The translations under genes and the position numbers were made by a program. Positions 9,054 through 27,433 of a DNA stretch of 33,780 nucleotides are shown in pieces. Below the pieces are notes generated by a model that worked only from the letters and a program-made list of their open reading frames with translations, did not search any database and was not told the origin of the DNA. Position 1 is the stretch's first letter. The number at the start of each line of letters is the position of its first letter. The DNA is from Zoogloea sp. (GTDB taxonomy: Bacteria > Pseudomonadota > Gammaproteobacteria > Burkholderiales > Rhodocyclaceae): positions 10,301-44,080 of the forward strand of contig NZ_JAOAUU010000109.1 in NCBI RefSeq assembly GCF_030157465.1, read 5' to 3'.

Positions 9054-9228
9054 GGAAAACTCCTCAAAACGGCGCGCCCAAAAGCAACGCCAGCCGCCGG
9101 AACGAGGGAGAACGGCCCCGGCTTAATTTAGGGCCCGGCCAGAACCGGCGCCCACGAAAACCTGAAGCGGTACACAGACCGCGGGGCGGACTATAACGGC
9201 GAGGCCGGCAGCTGTACAGGCGGGGCCC

Positions 9229-12787: not shown

Positions 12788-12853
12788 TGGCAGAACGGGA
12801 TACGGAAACCCGCGCAGCCTACCCTACCGGGCGCCCGATCCGCCCCAAAACAG

Positions 12854-12898
12854 GCCGCCAAGGTGCCAATTCGGCAACAAAACTGCGGCCTTGGTGGC
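12854..12898 (-). terminator. Probable intrinsic terminator of the GspE/PilB-like gene
   Basis: Ten-base arms (12854-12863 and 12889-12898, one mismatch) form a GC-rich hairpin directly after the stop codon of the minus-strand ATPase gene. On the minus strand the stem is followed within three bases by TTTT. The loop of 25 bases is long, so this is moderate evidence. Confidence 0.45.
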
Positions 12899-12908
12899 TT
12901 CAGCGGCT

Positions 12909-17554: not shown

Positions 17555-17698
17555 AAGCGGCTCCCGAAGTCAGCCGCGGAGTGTATCGGTTCTTTGACAC
17601 GCTCGTCAGCCTGATCAGGGCCTGATTTAACGAACTTCGTCAAAAAATCAGCCTTGCTGAAAAACAGGCCCAGGCCGTGAAGGCGGCAGAGGTGGTTT

Positions 17699-17774
17699 GT
17701 TATGTTTTTTCTTTTATATATATAAGACTATGTTAACTATGCTCGGACTGTTTCTGTGGATAACCCGATAAAAC
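17699..17774 (+). repeat. AT-rich/DnaA-box module, copy A
   Basis: A T-run followed by CTTTTATATATATAA leads, 44 bases from its first C, to the perfect DnaA box at 17755, and ATAAAAC begins 13 bases after the box start. Copy B at 18288-18361 repeats the same order with spacings of 43 and 13. The intervening bases match only partly, so this is an old duplication or a convergent architecture. It lies in a 397-bp spacer (17555-17951) that otherwise contains no gene. Confidence 0.7.
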
Positions 17775-17940
17775 CTTTTACATTCAATTGCATCCGAGCG
17801 GGAAAAAGCTCTGGAAAGAGGGCTTGTTGTGCAGGGGACAAAATGGGGAGGAATTTTTCCGGTCTTCGTGCTTTCCGGTTTGTCCACATTTTTTGCCACC
17901 GTTAACAGCCGGCTTGTGCACAGATTCGCCTGAAAGCCGC

Positions 17941-17970
17941 GATGCCAGGCCTCAGGCCAGGCCTGGCATC
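17941..17970. repeat. Perfect 12-bp inverted repeat spanning a stop codon
   Basis: Arms GATGCCAGGCCT (17941-17952) and AGGCCTGGCATC (17959-17970) enclose six bases that hold most of the TGA stop codon of the small minus-strand gene. The last codons of that gene therefore form one arm of a strong hairpin in its mRNA. No T-run follows on either strand, so it is not a classical intrinsic terminator. Confidence 0.75.
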
Positions 17971-18221
17971 GGGTACTTGCGACAAAAATAGGCGTAGGAC
18001 TTGCGCAAATGCTGTTCGCGACCGACCTGACCCTGTTCGGTCGCGGCAGCAAGCTGGTCGCGGAACATTTCGTGCAGCAACTGAATGCCCCGTTCGCTCC
18101 TCAGGAGCCCCCTGGCCATTTCGGTCGCCTCGGCGTCGGACACCCGGGTGGCGTCGTTGACGATCTGGACGGTTTCCCTGTCCAGGTCCATGAAGTCAAG
18201 CAGATCGATGATCGAGAGCAT
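17952..18221 (-). CDS. Small hypothetical protein between the two DnaA-box modules
   Basis: This 89-residue soluble protein is acidic in its first half (MLSIIDLLDFMDLDRETVQI) and basic near the end (REQHLRKSYAYFCRKYPMPG). It has no signal peptide or membrane segment and appears mostly helical. AAGGAAG lies just before the ATG at 18221, and codon choice is like that of its neighbours, so it is probably real. I do not recognise the family. Its place between two AT-rich DnaA-box modules makes a role connected with replication worth asking about, but nothing in the sequence shows one. Confidence 0.68.
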   Translation of the reverse strand: MLSIIDLLDFMDLDRETVQIVNDATRVSDAEATEMARGLLRSERGIQLLHEMFRDQLAAATEQGQVGREQHLRKSYAYFCRKYPMPGLA

Positions 18222-18287
18222 CAGAGTTCTTCCTTTGAAAATTCTTGCCAGGGCCGGTAGGCCCGTTACTTTGACTGTGTGAATTGT

Positions 18288-18361
18288 TAGTTGTTTTTCT
18301 TTATATATAAATACTGTTTACGTTAATGCTTTGCCGTTTTCTGTGGATAAGCCCATAAAAC
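18288..18361 (+). repeat. AT-rich/DnaA-box module, copy B
   Basis: TTTTTCTTTATATATAAA (18294-18311) is followed by the perfect DnaA box at 18342-18350 and ATAAAAC at 18355-18361, in the same order and nearly the same spacing as copy A. The spacer 18222-18511 contains no other credible gene. An ATG frame at 18436-18570 codes for 44 residues of no recognisable character. Confidence 0.7.
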
Positions 18362-18511
18362 TCAAATTTTTCATCTGCTTACCCCGTTCATAAAGTTGTC
18401 GGCAAGGCAGGGTTCGAAGTGTGGATCGATTGTTGATGAAATTTCGCCTCGCCTTGCCAGCAGGCTTTGTGCACAATTTGTACGCCCGAGTTTCCCGTTT
18501 TGTCCCCAGTC

Positions 18512-19657
18512 TTGCCATCTACCGCTCCTTGCAGCCCGCGCTGGGATCTTTTTTGCTCCGTTGTGGATAACTTCGGAGACATCGGCGTGTGTTGGCGTCT
18601 GGCGCGGCAGCTGGTGCGCGAGCACGGGATTGCAGTGCGTTTGTGGGTCGATGACCTTTTGAGCACGCGCCGCCTGATTCCCTCCCTGAACGTGGAGCTG
18701 GCCGTTCAGAGGATCGACGGCGTGGAGATCGTTCACTGGACAGACGCCCCGCGGGCCAGCGATCCCGGCGAGGTGGTGATCGCTGCTTTTGCCTGCGCCC
18801 TGCCGGACGCCTTCGTCGAGGAGATGGCCGTGCGAACGCCGCGGCCGGTGTGGATCAATCTCGAATACCTCAGCGCGGAAGTCTGGGTTGCCGGTTGCCA
18901 CGGCCTGCCTTCGCCCCATCCGCGTCTGCCGCTGACCCAGCATTTTTTCTTTCCCGGGCTGGATGGCGGAACCGGAGGCCTGCTCCGCGAAGCCGATTAT
19001 GCGGCGCGCCGGGAGGCCTTCTCCAAGGAGCGCTTCCTGACGGCCATCGGCTTGCCGCCAGCCGCTTCCGGCGAGCTGCTCATTTCTTTTTTTTCATATG
19101 AAAACAACGGGTTGGACGAAATTGTCGATTGCTGGCAGCGCCATCCCGGGCCGCTCACCTGCCTGGTTCCGGAGGGACGTGTGCTGCCGCCGCTGGCCTC
19201 GGCGCTTGGAGTCGACGGCTTGCGTCCAGGTGACGTTGTGGTGCGCGGAGCCCTTACGCTGTGCGTGCTACCCTTCGTCGAACAGGCCCGCTACGACGAA
19301 TTGCTGTGGGCCTGCGATCTCAATTTCGTGCGCGGGGAAGATTCTTTCGTGCGCGCCCAGTGGGCCGAGCGGCCGTTTGTCTGGCACATCTATGCTCAGG
19401 AGGACGCCGCTCACCTGGAAAAACTCGACGCGTTTCTTGCGCGTTACGGGCAGGGACTGGAGGCTGGCGTGGCGCGGGCCCTTGGCGATTTCTGGCGGGC
19501 CTGGAATCTGGGCGTCGGCGTGGCCGCCGCGTGGCCGGCTTTCCAGGCGGCTTTGCCGGCGCTGAAAGCGCATGCCCCGGGGTGGTCGGCAAGCGTGCAG
19601 GCAGCCGGTGATCTCGCCCAAAATCTGGTGCAATTCTGCAAAGCTGAGATAGAATAA
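18512..19657 (+). CDS. earP: EF-P arginine rhamnosyltransferase EarP
   Basis: EarP transfers rhamnose from dTDP-L-rhamnose to Arg32 of elongation factor P, the modification needed to relieve ribosome stalling at polyprolines. The family N-terminus [20 protein letters not shown] is present, with the catalytic Asp in its DNFGD motif. The C-terminal sugar-nucleotide site shows [17 protein letters not shown]. Length from TTG 18512 is 381 residues, usual for the family. No ATG or GTG exists in frame before the conserved start. TTG 18512 is the closest candidate, with TTG 18500 and 18467 further up, and none has a good ribosome site. The third DnaA box (18562) lies inside the first codons. The target gene efp follows after 58 bp. 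Confidence 0.93.
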
Positions 19658-19715: not shown

Positions 19716-20276
19716 ATGAAAACCGCAATGGAACTCCGCTCCGGCAACGTGATCATGGTGGGCAGCGACGCCCTCGTGGTTCAAAAAGCCGACTACAACA
19801 AGTCCGGCCGTAACGCTGCCGTGGTCAAGATGAAGCTCAAGAACCTGCTGACCGGCGCGCCGTCGGAGTCGGTTTACAAGGCTGATGATAAGTTTGAAGT
19901 TGTGGTCCTCGATCGCAAGGAAGTGACCTATTCCTACTTTGCCGACCCGATGTACGTGTTCATGGACGCCGACTACGAGCAGTACGAAGTCGAAGCCGAG
20001 AACATGACCGACGCGCTGAAGTACCTGATCGACGGCATGCCCTGTGAAGTGGTGTTCTTCAACGGCAAGGCCATCTCCGTCGATCTGCCGACCAGCGTCG
20101 TGCGCGAAGTGGAATACACCGAACCGGCCGTCAAGGGCGATACCTCCGGCAAGGTCATGAAGCCCGCGCGCATCGCACCGAGCGGCTTCGAACTGCCTGT
20201 TCCCGCCTTCGTGGAAATCGGCGACAAGATCGAAATCGACACCCGTACCGACGAGTATCGCAACCGGGTCAAGTAA
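19716..20276 (+). CDS. efp: Translation elongation factor P
   Basis: The 186-residue protein is full-length EF-P with three beta-barrel domains. It binds ribosomes stalled at consecutive prolines and promotes peptide-bond formation. The modification loop reads [12 protein letters not shown] with Arg at position 32, as expected for the EarP-modified type rather than the lysine-modified EpmA type. This agrees with earP immediately upstream. The C-terminal signature [13 protein letters not shown] is complete. A terminator hairpin follows within about 20 bases of the stop, so earP and efp form the whole unit. Confidence 0.97.
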
Positions 20277-20861: not shown

Positions 20862-20864
20862 CTT

Positions 20865-20905
20865 GGGCGCGGCTGCCGGAAGGGGGCCGCGCCCGGATGT
20901 TTTTT
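20865..20905 (+). terminator. Second, tandem hairpin with T-run
   Basis: GGGCGCGGC (20865-20873) pairs perfectly with GCCGCGCCC (20886-20894), and a six-T run (20900-20905) follows five bases later. It lies only four bases beyond the first terminator, so it may act as a back-up. Confidence 0.6.
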
Positions 20906-20995
20906 GAGTGCCGCTGGCGAGGGTTTGTCCCGGTCCGCGGTAATCCTCGATTTTTGAGATGACAGCGGTTTTTCTGTCGCTGTCCGCGCAAAGCC

Positions 20996-23977: not shown

Positions 23978-25858
23978 CTATTTCCAATCCCCACGCAATT
24001 CCGCAACCTGCAGCTGCAGGCCCGGGATGCTGACTGTTTCGGGTGCCAGGGCGCTGCCAGCGATGAGCTCGATGCGGCTGAACAGCCCGCGGCGCAGCGG
24101 TCGCGAGAGGGCCGGGCCGTCCTTGCGGGAAAACATGCTTCCCCACAGCCCGCGCAGCGCCAGCGGCACGACCGGCACCGGGGTGGCGTCGAGGATGCGG
24201 GTGATGCCGGGGCGGAAAGGGCACAGTTCGCCGTCGGCGGTGATCTTGCCTTCCGGAAAAAGTCCCACCAGCTCACCTGCGGCCAGCGCCTTCGAGACCT
24301 CCGCGAAAGCCGCTTCCATCATTTTTGGGTCTTCCCTGGCCGGTGCAATGGGAATCGCCCGGCTGTGGCGGAACACGAAGGAGAGCACCGGCCAGCGGAA
24401 GATCCGGTGGTCCATCACGAAGCGGATTGGCCGGCGGCAGGCGGCGGCGATCACCAGCGCATCGACAAAGCTCACGTGGTTGCACACGATGACGGCCGGG
24501 CCATCCTGCGGAATGTTTTCCATTCCTTCGGTGCGCAGGCGATAAACGCTGTGGATAAGTAGCCAGATGATGAAGCGCAGCAGGAATTCCGGCACCAGCC
24601 GGTAAATGTAGAGTGCCACCGCCGCGTTCATCACTGCTGCCAGGCCAAACAGCATCGGAATGCTGAGCCCGGCGCCGAGCAGCGCGCCGGCGGCCAGCGC
24701 GCCCGTCACCATGAAAAGCGCGTTCAGGATGTTGTTGGCGGCGATGATCCGCGCCCGGTGGCCGGGGGCAGAGCGGTTCTGCATCATCGCGTAGAGCGGC
24801 ACGATAAAAAGTCCGCCGAAGACGCCCAGCATCAAAAGCGCCAGCAGCACGCGGACGATGCCCGGCTGGGCAAGGACTGCACCGATGGCCAGCGGCGCGC
24901 CGGTCGGCAGCATGGTCGGAGAGGCAAAGGCGATATCCAGCCCGAACAGTGTCAGGCCGATCGATCCGAAGGGCACCAGGCCGATTTCCACCTGGCCGCC
25001 GGAAAACTTCTCGCACAGCAAGGAACCCAGCCCGATGCCCACCGTGAAGGTTGCCAGCAGTAGCGTCACCGTGCCCTCACCGCCGCCCAGCACACCTTTG
25101 GCGTAGGCCGGAAACTGGGCCAGAAACAGCGCGCCATACAGCCAGAACCAGGAGATTCCCATGATTGCCAGGAATACCGGACGGTTCTGGCGGGCAAAAC
25201 CGATGTTGCGCCAGGTTTCGGTGAAGGGATTGGGATTGACCTTGAGGCCGGGTTCCGGCGCTGGCGAGGGGGGTACGCCGCGGCTGGTGAGGTAGCCGCA
25301 GATGGCGACCACGATGCTGCCGCCGGCGATCCACAGTTCGCCGTTTTCCGCCGCGGCAAGCAGGCCGCCGACCAGCGTGCCGAGCAGGATGGCGACGAAC
25401 GTGCCTGCTTCCACCAGCGCGTTGCCGCCGACCAGCTCGTTCTCGTGCAGGTGTTGGGGCAGCAGCGCGTATTTCACCGGGCCGAAGAGCGTCGAGTGGC
25501 AGCCGAGCAGAAAGAGCGCAAAAAACAGCACGGCCAGGCTGTGAAGCAGAAAGCCGGCCAGCGCGACAGTCATGATGGCGATTTCCAGCACCTTGACGAG
25601 GCGGGTCAGGCGGGACTTGTCGTACTTGTCGGCAAGCTGGCCGGCGCTGGCCGAAAACAGGAAAAACGGCAGGATGAAGATGCCCGCAGCCAGGTTGGCG
25701 AGCAGTTCCGGCGCGATGCTCGTCCAGCTTGCGGCCTGAAAGGTGAGCAGCACCACCAGGGCGTTCTTGAACAGGTTATCGTTGAAGGCGCCGAGAAACT
25801 GGGTCAGGAAAAAAGGGCGGAAACGCCGTTCGCGTAGGAGGTGAAACTGGGAGCTCAT
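23978..25858 (-). CDS. MFS transporter-acyltransferase fusion (LplT/PlsC type)
   Basis: This 626-residue protein joins a major facilitator domain (about residues 10-420) to a PlsC-type acyltransferase (about 435-620). The first domain has the LplT-like GAFNDNLFKNALVVLLTF and loop motif AGQLADKYDKSRL. The second has the catalytic NHVSFVD box (H461, D466) and FPEGKIT (534-540). In enterobacteria LplT flips lysophospholipid inward and Aas re-acylates it. Here transport and acylation are in one chain, but the acyl-ACP synthetase (AMP-binding) part of Aas is missing. Phospholipid repair in the inner membrane is the likely role. Confidence 0.9.
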   Translation of the reverse strand: MSSQFHLLRERRFRPFFLTQFLGAFNDNLFKNALVVLLTFQAASWTSIAPELLANLAAGIFILPFFLFSASAGQLADKYDKSRLTRLVKVLEIAIMTVALAGFLLHSLAVLFFALFLLGCHSTLFGPVKYALLPQHLHENELVGGNALVEAGTFVAILLGTLVGGLLAAAENGELWIAGGSIVVAICGYLTSRGVPPSPAPEPGLKVNPNPFTETWRNIGFARQNRPVFLAIMGISWFWLYGALFLAQFPAYAKGVLGGGEGTVTLLLATFTVGIGLGSLLCEKFSGGQVEIGLVPFGSIGLTLFGLDIAFASPTMLPTGAPLAIGAVLAQPGIVRVLLALLMLGVFGGLFIVPLYAMMQNRSAPGHRARIIAANNILNALFMVTGALAAGALLGAGLSIPMLFGLAAVMNAAVALYIYRLVPEFLLRFIIWLLIHSVYRLRTEGMENIPQDGPAVIVCNHVSFVDALVIAAACRRPIRFVMDHRIFRWPVLSFVFRHSRAIPIAPAREDPKMMEAAFAEVSKALAAGELVGLFPEGKITADGELCPFRPGITRILDATPVPVVPLALRGLWGSMFSRKDGPALSRPLRRGLFSRIELIAGSALAPETVSIPGLQLQVAELRGDWK

Positions 25859-26477: not shown

Positions 26478-26652
26478 GACGCAGTTGCCACAGGGCAGCC
26501 AGCCCGATCAGTCCCAGTCCGGCGAGGCCGCCATCACCGCCGCCACGTCTATCGTAGCCAGGCCGTTCGGTGATGCGGGCCACCTTCTCTTCGGTGACGC
26601 GGACCTTGAAGTTTTCCAGCTGTCGGTTGAGTTGGGGAATCAAGTTATCCAC
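26467..26652 (-). pseudogene. Detached GlyGly-CTERM-like tail of the rhombotarget lipoprotein
   Basis: This 61-codon stretch is in the same frame as the lipoprotein gene upstream and is separated from it only by a TAG codon (26658-26656) and one sense codon. It encodes a charged helix (NRQLENFKVRVTEEKVARI), a linker RPGYDRRGGGDGG, a hydrophobic helix (LAGLGLIGLAALW) and the basic end QLRRAR. That is the full layout of a GlyGly-CTERM sorting signal. A GTG at 26652 could start it separately, but there is no ribosome site and no export signal. I take it as the C-terminal part of the lipoprotein, cut off by a nonsense change, possibly CAG to TAG, or read through. Confidence 0.75.
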
Positions 26653-26655
26653 AGC

Positions 26656-27291
26656 CTAGCGGAAGCCTTCGCCGCGGGCCGCGCGGGAGGCCTCGGAGAA
26701 TTTCACCATCGGCGAACTGCCCTTGATCTGGCTGGTGCCGGGCGCGCGGAACAACAGCTGACGGCTGCTGACGTCGAATACTGCGGCGTCGACGAGGGTA
26801 TTTACGTCGTACTGGTCGCCATTGACCAGATAGGCGCCGACGATGGTCCAGTAGAGCAGTGACAGCCGGTTGCTGTCGTTGAACTGGACCTGGTCGTAGG
26901 AAAGCAGGGCCACCACCTCGACGTTGAACATCCGCGCTGTTTGCTGCAGGTTGTCGAAGCCGCCGCGGGCCCGCAGATAGGGGGTGGGGATGACTTCGAT
27001 GGCCGAGATGTAGGGCCGGTTAGCAAATGCGGCCCTGACCCGGTTGAGGAGCTGGTTGCGCTCGGCTTCGGTGAGATCGCCGAAGCGCTCGCCAGGAACG
27101 AAGGCGATCCCGACCCTTAGCGGCAGGTGCAGTTCCGGCGTGGCGGGTTTGAGCGTCGGCTCTTCGCCCTTCGGATAAAGGTATTCGACAACGCTGCCGC
27201 GCTGGACCTTGCTGCCTTGCTCCATCCAGGATGCGCAGCCGCTCAGCAGGAGGGCCGCGCAGAGTGGGGCAGTGAGGGATATCAGCTTCAT
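26656..27291 (-). CDS. Rhombotarget-type lipoprotein, ended early by an in-frame amber codon
   Basis: The 211-residue protein starts MKLISLTAPLCAALLLSGC, a lipoprotein signal with lipobox LSGC (Cys19), preceded by AAAGGAG. The body contains RVGIAFVPGERFGDLTEAER, RPYISAIEVIPTPYLRARGG and DAAVFDVSSRQLLFRAPGTS, as in the lipoproteins found beside rhombosortase genes and known as rhombotarget lipoproteins. Family members are expected to carry a C-terminal GlyGly-CTERM tail. Here translation stops at TAG after SRAARGEGFR, and the missing tail is encoded in frame directly beyond. Frame continuity upstream to 27432 adds 47 residues without a stop but has no good start. Gene order is lipoprotein, tail, rrtA. 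Confidence 0.82.
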   Translation of the reverse strand: MKLISLTAPLCAALLLSGCASWMEQGSKVQRGSVVEYLYPKGEEPTLKPATPELHLPLRVGIAFVPGERFGDLTEAERNQLLNRVRAAFANRPYISAIEVIPTPYLRARGGFDNLQQTARMFNVEVVALLSYDQVQFNDSNRLSLLYWTIVGAYLVNGDQYDVNTLVDAAVFDVSSRQLLFRAPGTSQIKGSSPMVKFSEASRAARGEGFR

Positions 27292-27433
27292 GGCAGGCTC
27301 CTTTGTTGAAGAGGGCTCAGGCTCTTTCGGCCCAGGTCCTGAGGGTGAGATGTCTATCTTGCCGGCCTTCGCCAGCGGCAGACAGGGGGCTTCGAGCACG
27401 CCCGAGCTGTCGAACCGCAGGTAGCCGGACAAT

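Follow-up and report, generated by a model that had tools for sequence, protein, structure and literature searches.

We describe a short region beside the genes earP and efp which is very probably the chromosomal replication origin (oriC) of this bacterium. It lies at 17.70-18.57 kb of the window, by which we mean the whole 33,780-nt stretch of DNA that was analysed. The region is most simply explained as a DnaA-type oriC that left dnaA-dnaN and became established at earP, and we regard it as very probably a displaced and doubled oriC, placed beside the gene of a translation factor instead of dnaA. Its position, the arrangement of its motifs and a skew switch in several relatives mark the place. 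An origin beside earP-efp and apart from dnaA was the original prediction for this DNA, and it is supported by box density, by conservation of the modules and by the skew minima of relatives. To the left of the modules, the minus strand carries a type IV pilus ATPase gene, an aminotransferase-like gene and an AtaL-domain gene; to the right, earP and efp run on the plus strand and the atp operon follows from 27.9 kb. The features of the locus are as follows.

17697..17754, no strand: module 1 AT-rich candidate unwinding element (core TTTTATATATATAAG) with the spacer to the main box; low GC, kept in 21/21 genus loci aligned
17755..17763, minus strand: module 1 main DnaA box TTATCCACA; perfect in 20/21 genus loci, TTTTCCACA in L033
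17880..17888, plus strand: module 1 partner box TTGTCCACA, on the opposite strand, 125 bp from the main box
17914..17922, plus strand: module 1 extra weak box TTGTGCACA, at offset +159
17952..18221, minus strand: 89-aa ORF between the modules (translation)
18285..18341, no strand: module 2 AT-rich candidate unwinding element (core TTTATATATAAATA) with spacer
18342..18350, minus strand: module 2 main DnaA box TTATCCACA; perfect in 16/21 genus loci, TTTTCCACA in the other five
18467..18475, plus strand: module 2 partner box TTGTGCACA, within a palindrome, exactly 125 bp from the main box in 21/21 genus loci
18542..19657, plus strand: earP, EF-P arginine rhamnosyltransferase, conserved part (TIGR03837, E 9e-147, from ORF residue 26)
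18562..18570, minus strand: third DnaA box, within the VVDN codons of earP; the main box of module 2 is 220 bp away
19716..20276, plus strand: efp, elongation factor P

The cluster of DnaA boxes stands well over the genome background. Three perfect TTATCCACA boxes in a single orientation had been claimed within 816 bp, and all three are present on the minus strand (17755-17763, 18342-18350 and 18562-18570), although the third lies within codons of earP, outside the spacer. The genome (4.70 Mb in 174 contigs) holds 19 such boxes, 5 of them in the 34-kb window, where 0.14 are expected. At the genome rate, about 0.003 boxes are expected per 816 bp, and the probability of three or more is about 6e-9. 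When one mismatch is allowed, the window contains 15 boxes, against 2.2 in shuffles. The two AT-rich modules said to carry a box each have the lowest GC of all 60-mers in the window (starts 18266 and 17696), and in each an AT-rich candidate unwinding element adjoins a strong box, an association that is conserved in the genus. The window has two further perfect boxes, one inside a predicted acyltransferase gene (24550-24558, minus strand; gene 23978-25858) and one adjoining a rhombotarget lipoprotein gene (26645-26653, plus strand; gene 26656-27432). Another contig of the same genome (L017, G000:C11) carries perfect boxes at 1796 and 1931, 135 bp apart, which is possibly a DnaA control site.

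The gene earP was detected in 55/60 relatives, and the region upstream of it was compared in 20 of 22 same-genus relatives together with the window's own (21 loci); G001 and G008 were left out of the alignment because their earP matches were partial. Two modules are found in the same order and orientation in 21/21 of these loci (20/20 without the window's own), so the word bipartite, used in the original prediction, is fair, and the locus holds two separated DnaA-box subregions. A genus module consists of a T-rich stretch and a core like TTTATATATATAAG, followed by TGTGGATAA or TGTGGAAAA. An element of GTTAAC or GTTTAC type is present in most modules, and 354-592 bp separate the two main boxes. 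The intervening 89-aa ORF has no Pfam match, and among the 11 of 21 alignment rows inspected an ORF-like block is present in the five long-spacer rows and absent from the six short-spacer rows.

The modules share a fixed internal spacing. A partner box of type TTGTNCACA lies on the opposite strand 125 bp from the main box in 39/42 genus modules; for module 1 the distance is 125 bp in 18/21 and 124 bp in one, with no such box in two, and module 2 keeps it throughout. Across the family, a partner box is found at 123-125 bp in 17/30 module loci; the other 13 lack a TTRTNCACA partner, and one of them carries a box at 98 bp instead. All spacings in the 30 family loci, with a perfect pair counted once per strand, are 125 bp (18 times), 124 (4), 123 (1), 159 (3), 158 (1) and 98 (2). 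The 125-bp spacing recurs in Azoarcus L1K30 (both modules) and in Thauera sp. 28, and a module of G076 that lies beside dnaA has the same geometry. Two further elements were looked for. For an IHF site just inside the strong box, the best match to the consensus WATCARNNNNTTR often falls at offset 18, but shuffles equal it in a fraction of 0.37 (module 1) and 0.21 (module 2) on average, which is not clearly above shuffles. The basal unwinding system, as set out in PMC8287927, combines a DnaA box, a spacer of <=16 bp and repeated 3'-GAT-5' trios; no clean run of DnaA-trios was seen in the genus module alignment when read by eye.

This anatomy leaves room for a narrower reading, in which the origin is module 2 alone and module 1 a duplicate whose role is DnaA binding or timing. 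We take it as a real possibility, if a somewhat doubtful one. Several genera show a single module match beside earP (e.g., G156, G078, G154 and G104), Thauera sp. 28 has one module match with a perfect box, the 125-bp partner is complete for module 2 and present in 18 of 21 for module 1, and the third box comes after module 2. However, every genus locus aligned has two modules, and it is in module 1 that the perfect main box is kept more often (20/21 against 16/21).

The earP-side module has a wider distribution than the window. A module model, based on sequence only and built from 32 of 44 module sequences, was run on 121 family genomes and matched in 57 of them (E <= 0.01); the other 64 gave no match under stricter filters, which lose weak matches. 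The gene earP was located in 115/121. The best module lies <=6 kb upstream of earP in 27/121 genomes and 16/68 genera, and a placement apart from dnaA, which had been called unusual for this group, is thus not peculiar to the window's genome. Among the 57 matching genomes, the best module is <=0.4 kb from dnaA in 17 and 4-27 kb from dnaA in 8, while the remaining 5 have it elsewhere or on short contigs. Matches at dnaA score weakly (E 7e-7 to 0.009), in part because earP-side modules supplied the sequences for the model. Six genomes (G074, G095, G114, G133, G149 and G161) carry a second, inverted module, 2.6-4.4 kb upstream of earP; G161 and Azoarcus L1K30 share earP coordinates and are therefore probably one genome. 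The EarP tree, drawn from 23 of 33 rows (the rest had short translations or none), is weakly resolved and has three label changes as drawn, with as few as one possible. A number of related genera seem, from the module matches, to share an earP-side origin.

The third box lies in the coding sequence of earP. In the window it reads GTT GTG GAT AAC, encoding VVDN of EarP. A perfect box in these codons is present in 20/25 genomes with an earP-side module and 1/61 others, counted over 86 genomes with the relatedness among them not removed; when only xVDN-encoding sequences are taken, the counts are 20/25 and 1/34 (Fisher 3.5e-10), and by genus they are 13/15 and 1/26. The 25 come from 27 earP-side genomes, G138 and G153 giving no pattern match, and the 86-row set omits one G064 match outside any detected earP as well as secondary matches of G079, G096, G099 and G155. 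The sole exception, G136, which has the box without an earP-side module, is congeneric with an earP-side genome. Minus-strand box pairs 223 or 224 bp apart number 14 as counted in 30 family loci, the distance in the window being 220 bp. In G063 and G123 earP is elsewhere, yet TTGTGGATAATTTTG stands 223 bp from the main box. From these data we think it probable that in at least 16 of 68 sampled genera (27/121 genomes) the origin has parted from dnaA-dnaN and is now located at earP, and that earP has been drawn into the origin through a DnaA box in its first conserved codons. This box, in most such genera 223-224 bp away from the main box, would be maintained by the choice among synonymous codons, and would have survived in G063 and G123 although earP itself is elsewhere there.

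It is unlikely, in our judgement, that the codon box is the VVDN protein motif spelled by chance, with common descent only. The motif is indeed present in the EarP of genomes whose module is elsewhere, the tests are uncorrected for relatedness, and the window's own genus retains a perfect codon box in only 5/21, so that the constraint there looks relaxed. Against this stand the counts given above, in the xVDN-only set and by genus alike, the box kept by G063 and G123 with earP elsewhere, and the distance between the EarP sequences: their median end branch is 0.36 changes per site, and because the branches are this long, unselected synonymous sites should differ. At the loci L206 (G123) and L209 (G063), an earP-like start sequence with a DnaA box persists though earP is elsewhere.

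The earP-side modules neither adjoin dnaA nor lie in the dnaA-dnaN gap. In seven genomes of the genus, dnaA is 38-94 kb from earP, on its upstream side, and in the window's own genome it is on another contig. The box count suggested for the dnaA-dnaN region gave zero in the gap, which supports an origin apart from dnaA: the gap, 44-88 bp long, has no TTWTNCACA-type box in ten genomes with an earP-side module (G000, G006, G012, G015, G017, G019, G020, G021, Azoarcus and Thauera, the dnaN start of G006 being read by eye). In these ten a single perfect box precedes dnaA, as would suit autoregulation. In G029 and G032, the gap is 520 and 190 bp, respectively, with two perfect boxes in each. Where parS-like sites and the DnaA domain match share a contig, which is the case in nine genomes, they are 4.5-16.5 kb apart, and the sites are therefore farther from earP.

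The GC skew of several relatives places the switch at earP. The skew-minimum check that the original prediction called for was run in relatives, and the cumulative minimum falls at the modules in G060, G020, G021 and G012, and not in G006 or G017. The clearest view is given by Azoarcus sp. L1K30, with earP on a 4.96-Mb scaffold and the same module upstream. Its cumulative minimum, over a contiguous 420 kb, is at 3,378,239, 8 bp from the start of the earP match (3,378,231), and its change point is at 3,378,000 (bootstrap 3,370-3,385 kb). The dnaA gene of this genome, at 3.483 Mb, is inside the positive arm, about 104-105 kb downstream of earP. In twenty 20-kb samples, the skew is negative over 0.99-3.24 Mb and positive in the others; the opposite switch lies between 0.76 and 0.99 Mb, and the diametrically opposite point is 0.90 Mb. 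In G020 the minimum is at 104,309, with the modules at 103.2-103.8 kb (bootstrap interval 97-114 kb); in G021 it is at 100,343, with main boxes near 99.5 and 100.1 kb (interval 72-141 kb); and in G012 it is at 267,650, with a box at 269,420 (interval 250-290 kb). In these three the minimum and the modules are no more than about 2 kb apart, dnaA is 65-94 kb away, and each interval excludes it. The four clear-skew genomes (G020, G021, G012 and Azoarcus) have the switch at earP whether dnaA is upstream or downstream. G133 is a weaker case, its minimum in a 40-kb sample (105,244) being 8 kb off the module (97,098). G006 fits dnaA better: its minimum (927.5 kb) is about 12 kb from earP, and dnaA (953 kb) falls inside the change-point interval (937-1060 kb), whereas earP (914 kb) falls outside it. 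In G017 the skew does not turn from negative to positive at earP. KOPS-like octamers (GGGNAGGG) proved too sparse to place the switch finely.

DnaA boxes occur also at control loci and promoters, and the dnaA locus has its parS, its one perfect box and the skew interval of G006 in its favour, but it is very improbable that the cluster serves to titrate or reactivate DnaA, or acts as an earP promoter under DnaA control, with the true origin at dnaA-dnaN, given skew minima at earP and not dnaA in Azoarcus, G020, G021 and G012, a box-free dnaA-dnaN gap in ten genomes, and modules that bear AT-rich elements and whose model also matches the dnaA-dnaN region of other genera.

For the oriC at earP, we infer from the anatomy of the modules how opening would proceed, with DnaA binding, opening and firing there. 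In each module, DnaA would occupy the strong box and the opposed partner 125 bp away, and its oligomer would extend in the direction of the AT-rich element that lies beyond the strong box. This element would open, two helicases would load, and forks would leave both ways. The origin would be doubled: one module in two tandem copies, of which the second extends into earP, where the first conserved codons would supply a third box.

The layout can be compared with known origins. The Escherichia coli oriC has an AT-rich unwinding side, a strong outer box and an opposed box, and is flanked by gidA (mnmG) and mioC. The modules resemble this layout in the AT-rich side, the strong outer box, the opposed box on the opposite strand and the TTATCCACA-type boxes, and in not adjoining dnaA. 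They differ in the earP flank, the two tandem modules, the 125-bp box pair and the box in codons, and an IHF site is weakly supported here. Nearer at hand, the module of sister genera (G029, G032 and others) is matched by the same model, with two perfect boxes in the gaps of G029 and G032; it adjoins dnaA, not earP, and its matches are weaker (E 7e-7 to 0.009). The bipartite origins of Bacillus subtilis and Helicobacter pylori, as presented in PMC4285127, likewise consist of two DnaA-box subregions, and the spacer between them may contain a gene; there the gene is usually dnaA and the unwinding element is in one subregion, whereas here an AT-rich element is in both modules and dnaA is tens of kilobases off in the genomes measured. 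PMC10225481 and PMC6323995 state that oriC usually, not always, adjoins dnaA. Synechococcus lividus, whose oriC is far from dnaA and dnaN according to the latter source, is similar in having a DnaA-box cluster away from both genes, and dissimilar in phylum, box type and neighbours. Among the papers listed in literature searches, none concerns an origin beside earP and none is an oriC study of Accumulibacter, Azoarcus or Thauera. The DoriC database may contain predictions for these genomes. In the main text of the paper on the Thauera MZ1T genome (PMC3558969), dnaA goes unmentioned.

The placement matters for practice. Closed genomes often start at dnaA, as do several in the present set. For origin finders, dnaA is the default indicator gene, as noted in PMC10225481. 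In these genera, origin calling by this default would be wrong by tens of kilobases, and such misplacement would bias growth-rate estimates from read depth. With related genomes carrying the module at dnaA-dnaN or at earP, how an origin leaves its initiator gene becomes a comparative question, and the fixed 125-bp box pair, together with a DnaA box in coding sequence, gives simple predictions on the assembly of the DnaA complex.

The skew of the window and its contig adds several smaller observations. A switch in skew at the modules had been claimed. Within the window it stands, the cumulative minimum being at 16-18 kb, but the whole 44-kb contig does not single the place out (change point 13 kb, earP 28.8 kb), because its first 13.6 kb are strongly positive. 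That segment (L014, contig G000:C108 1-13600) is out of keeping with a left arm and is possibly inverted or acquired. The spacer base counts quoted in the claim were right or nearly so: 9061-9228 has A 42, T 13, G 56 and C 57; 12788-12908 has A 28, T 15, C 43 and G 35; and 20862-20995 has A 15, T 35, G 48 and C 36. Coarse skew did not settle the origins of G027 and G032; in ten samples of G032:C1, a number too small for interpretation, it turns positive between 2.58 and 2.88 Mb, although dnaA with two perfect boxes is at position 1. In G006, the second half of L111 (G006:C9:810001-820000) has an apparent G+C of 0.30, against about 0.65 in its neighbours, and may be a low-GC island or masked bases.
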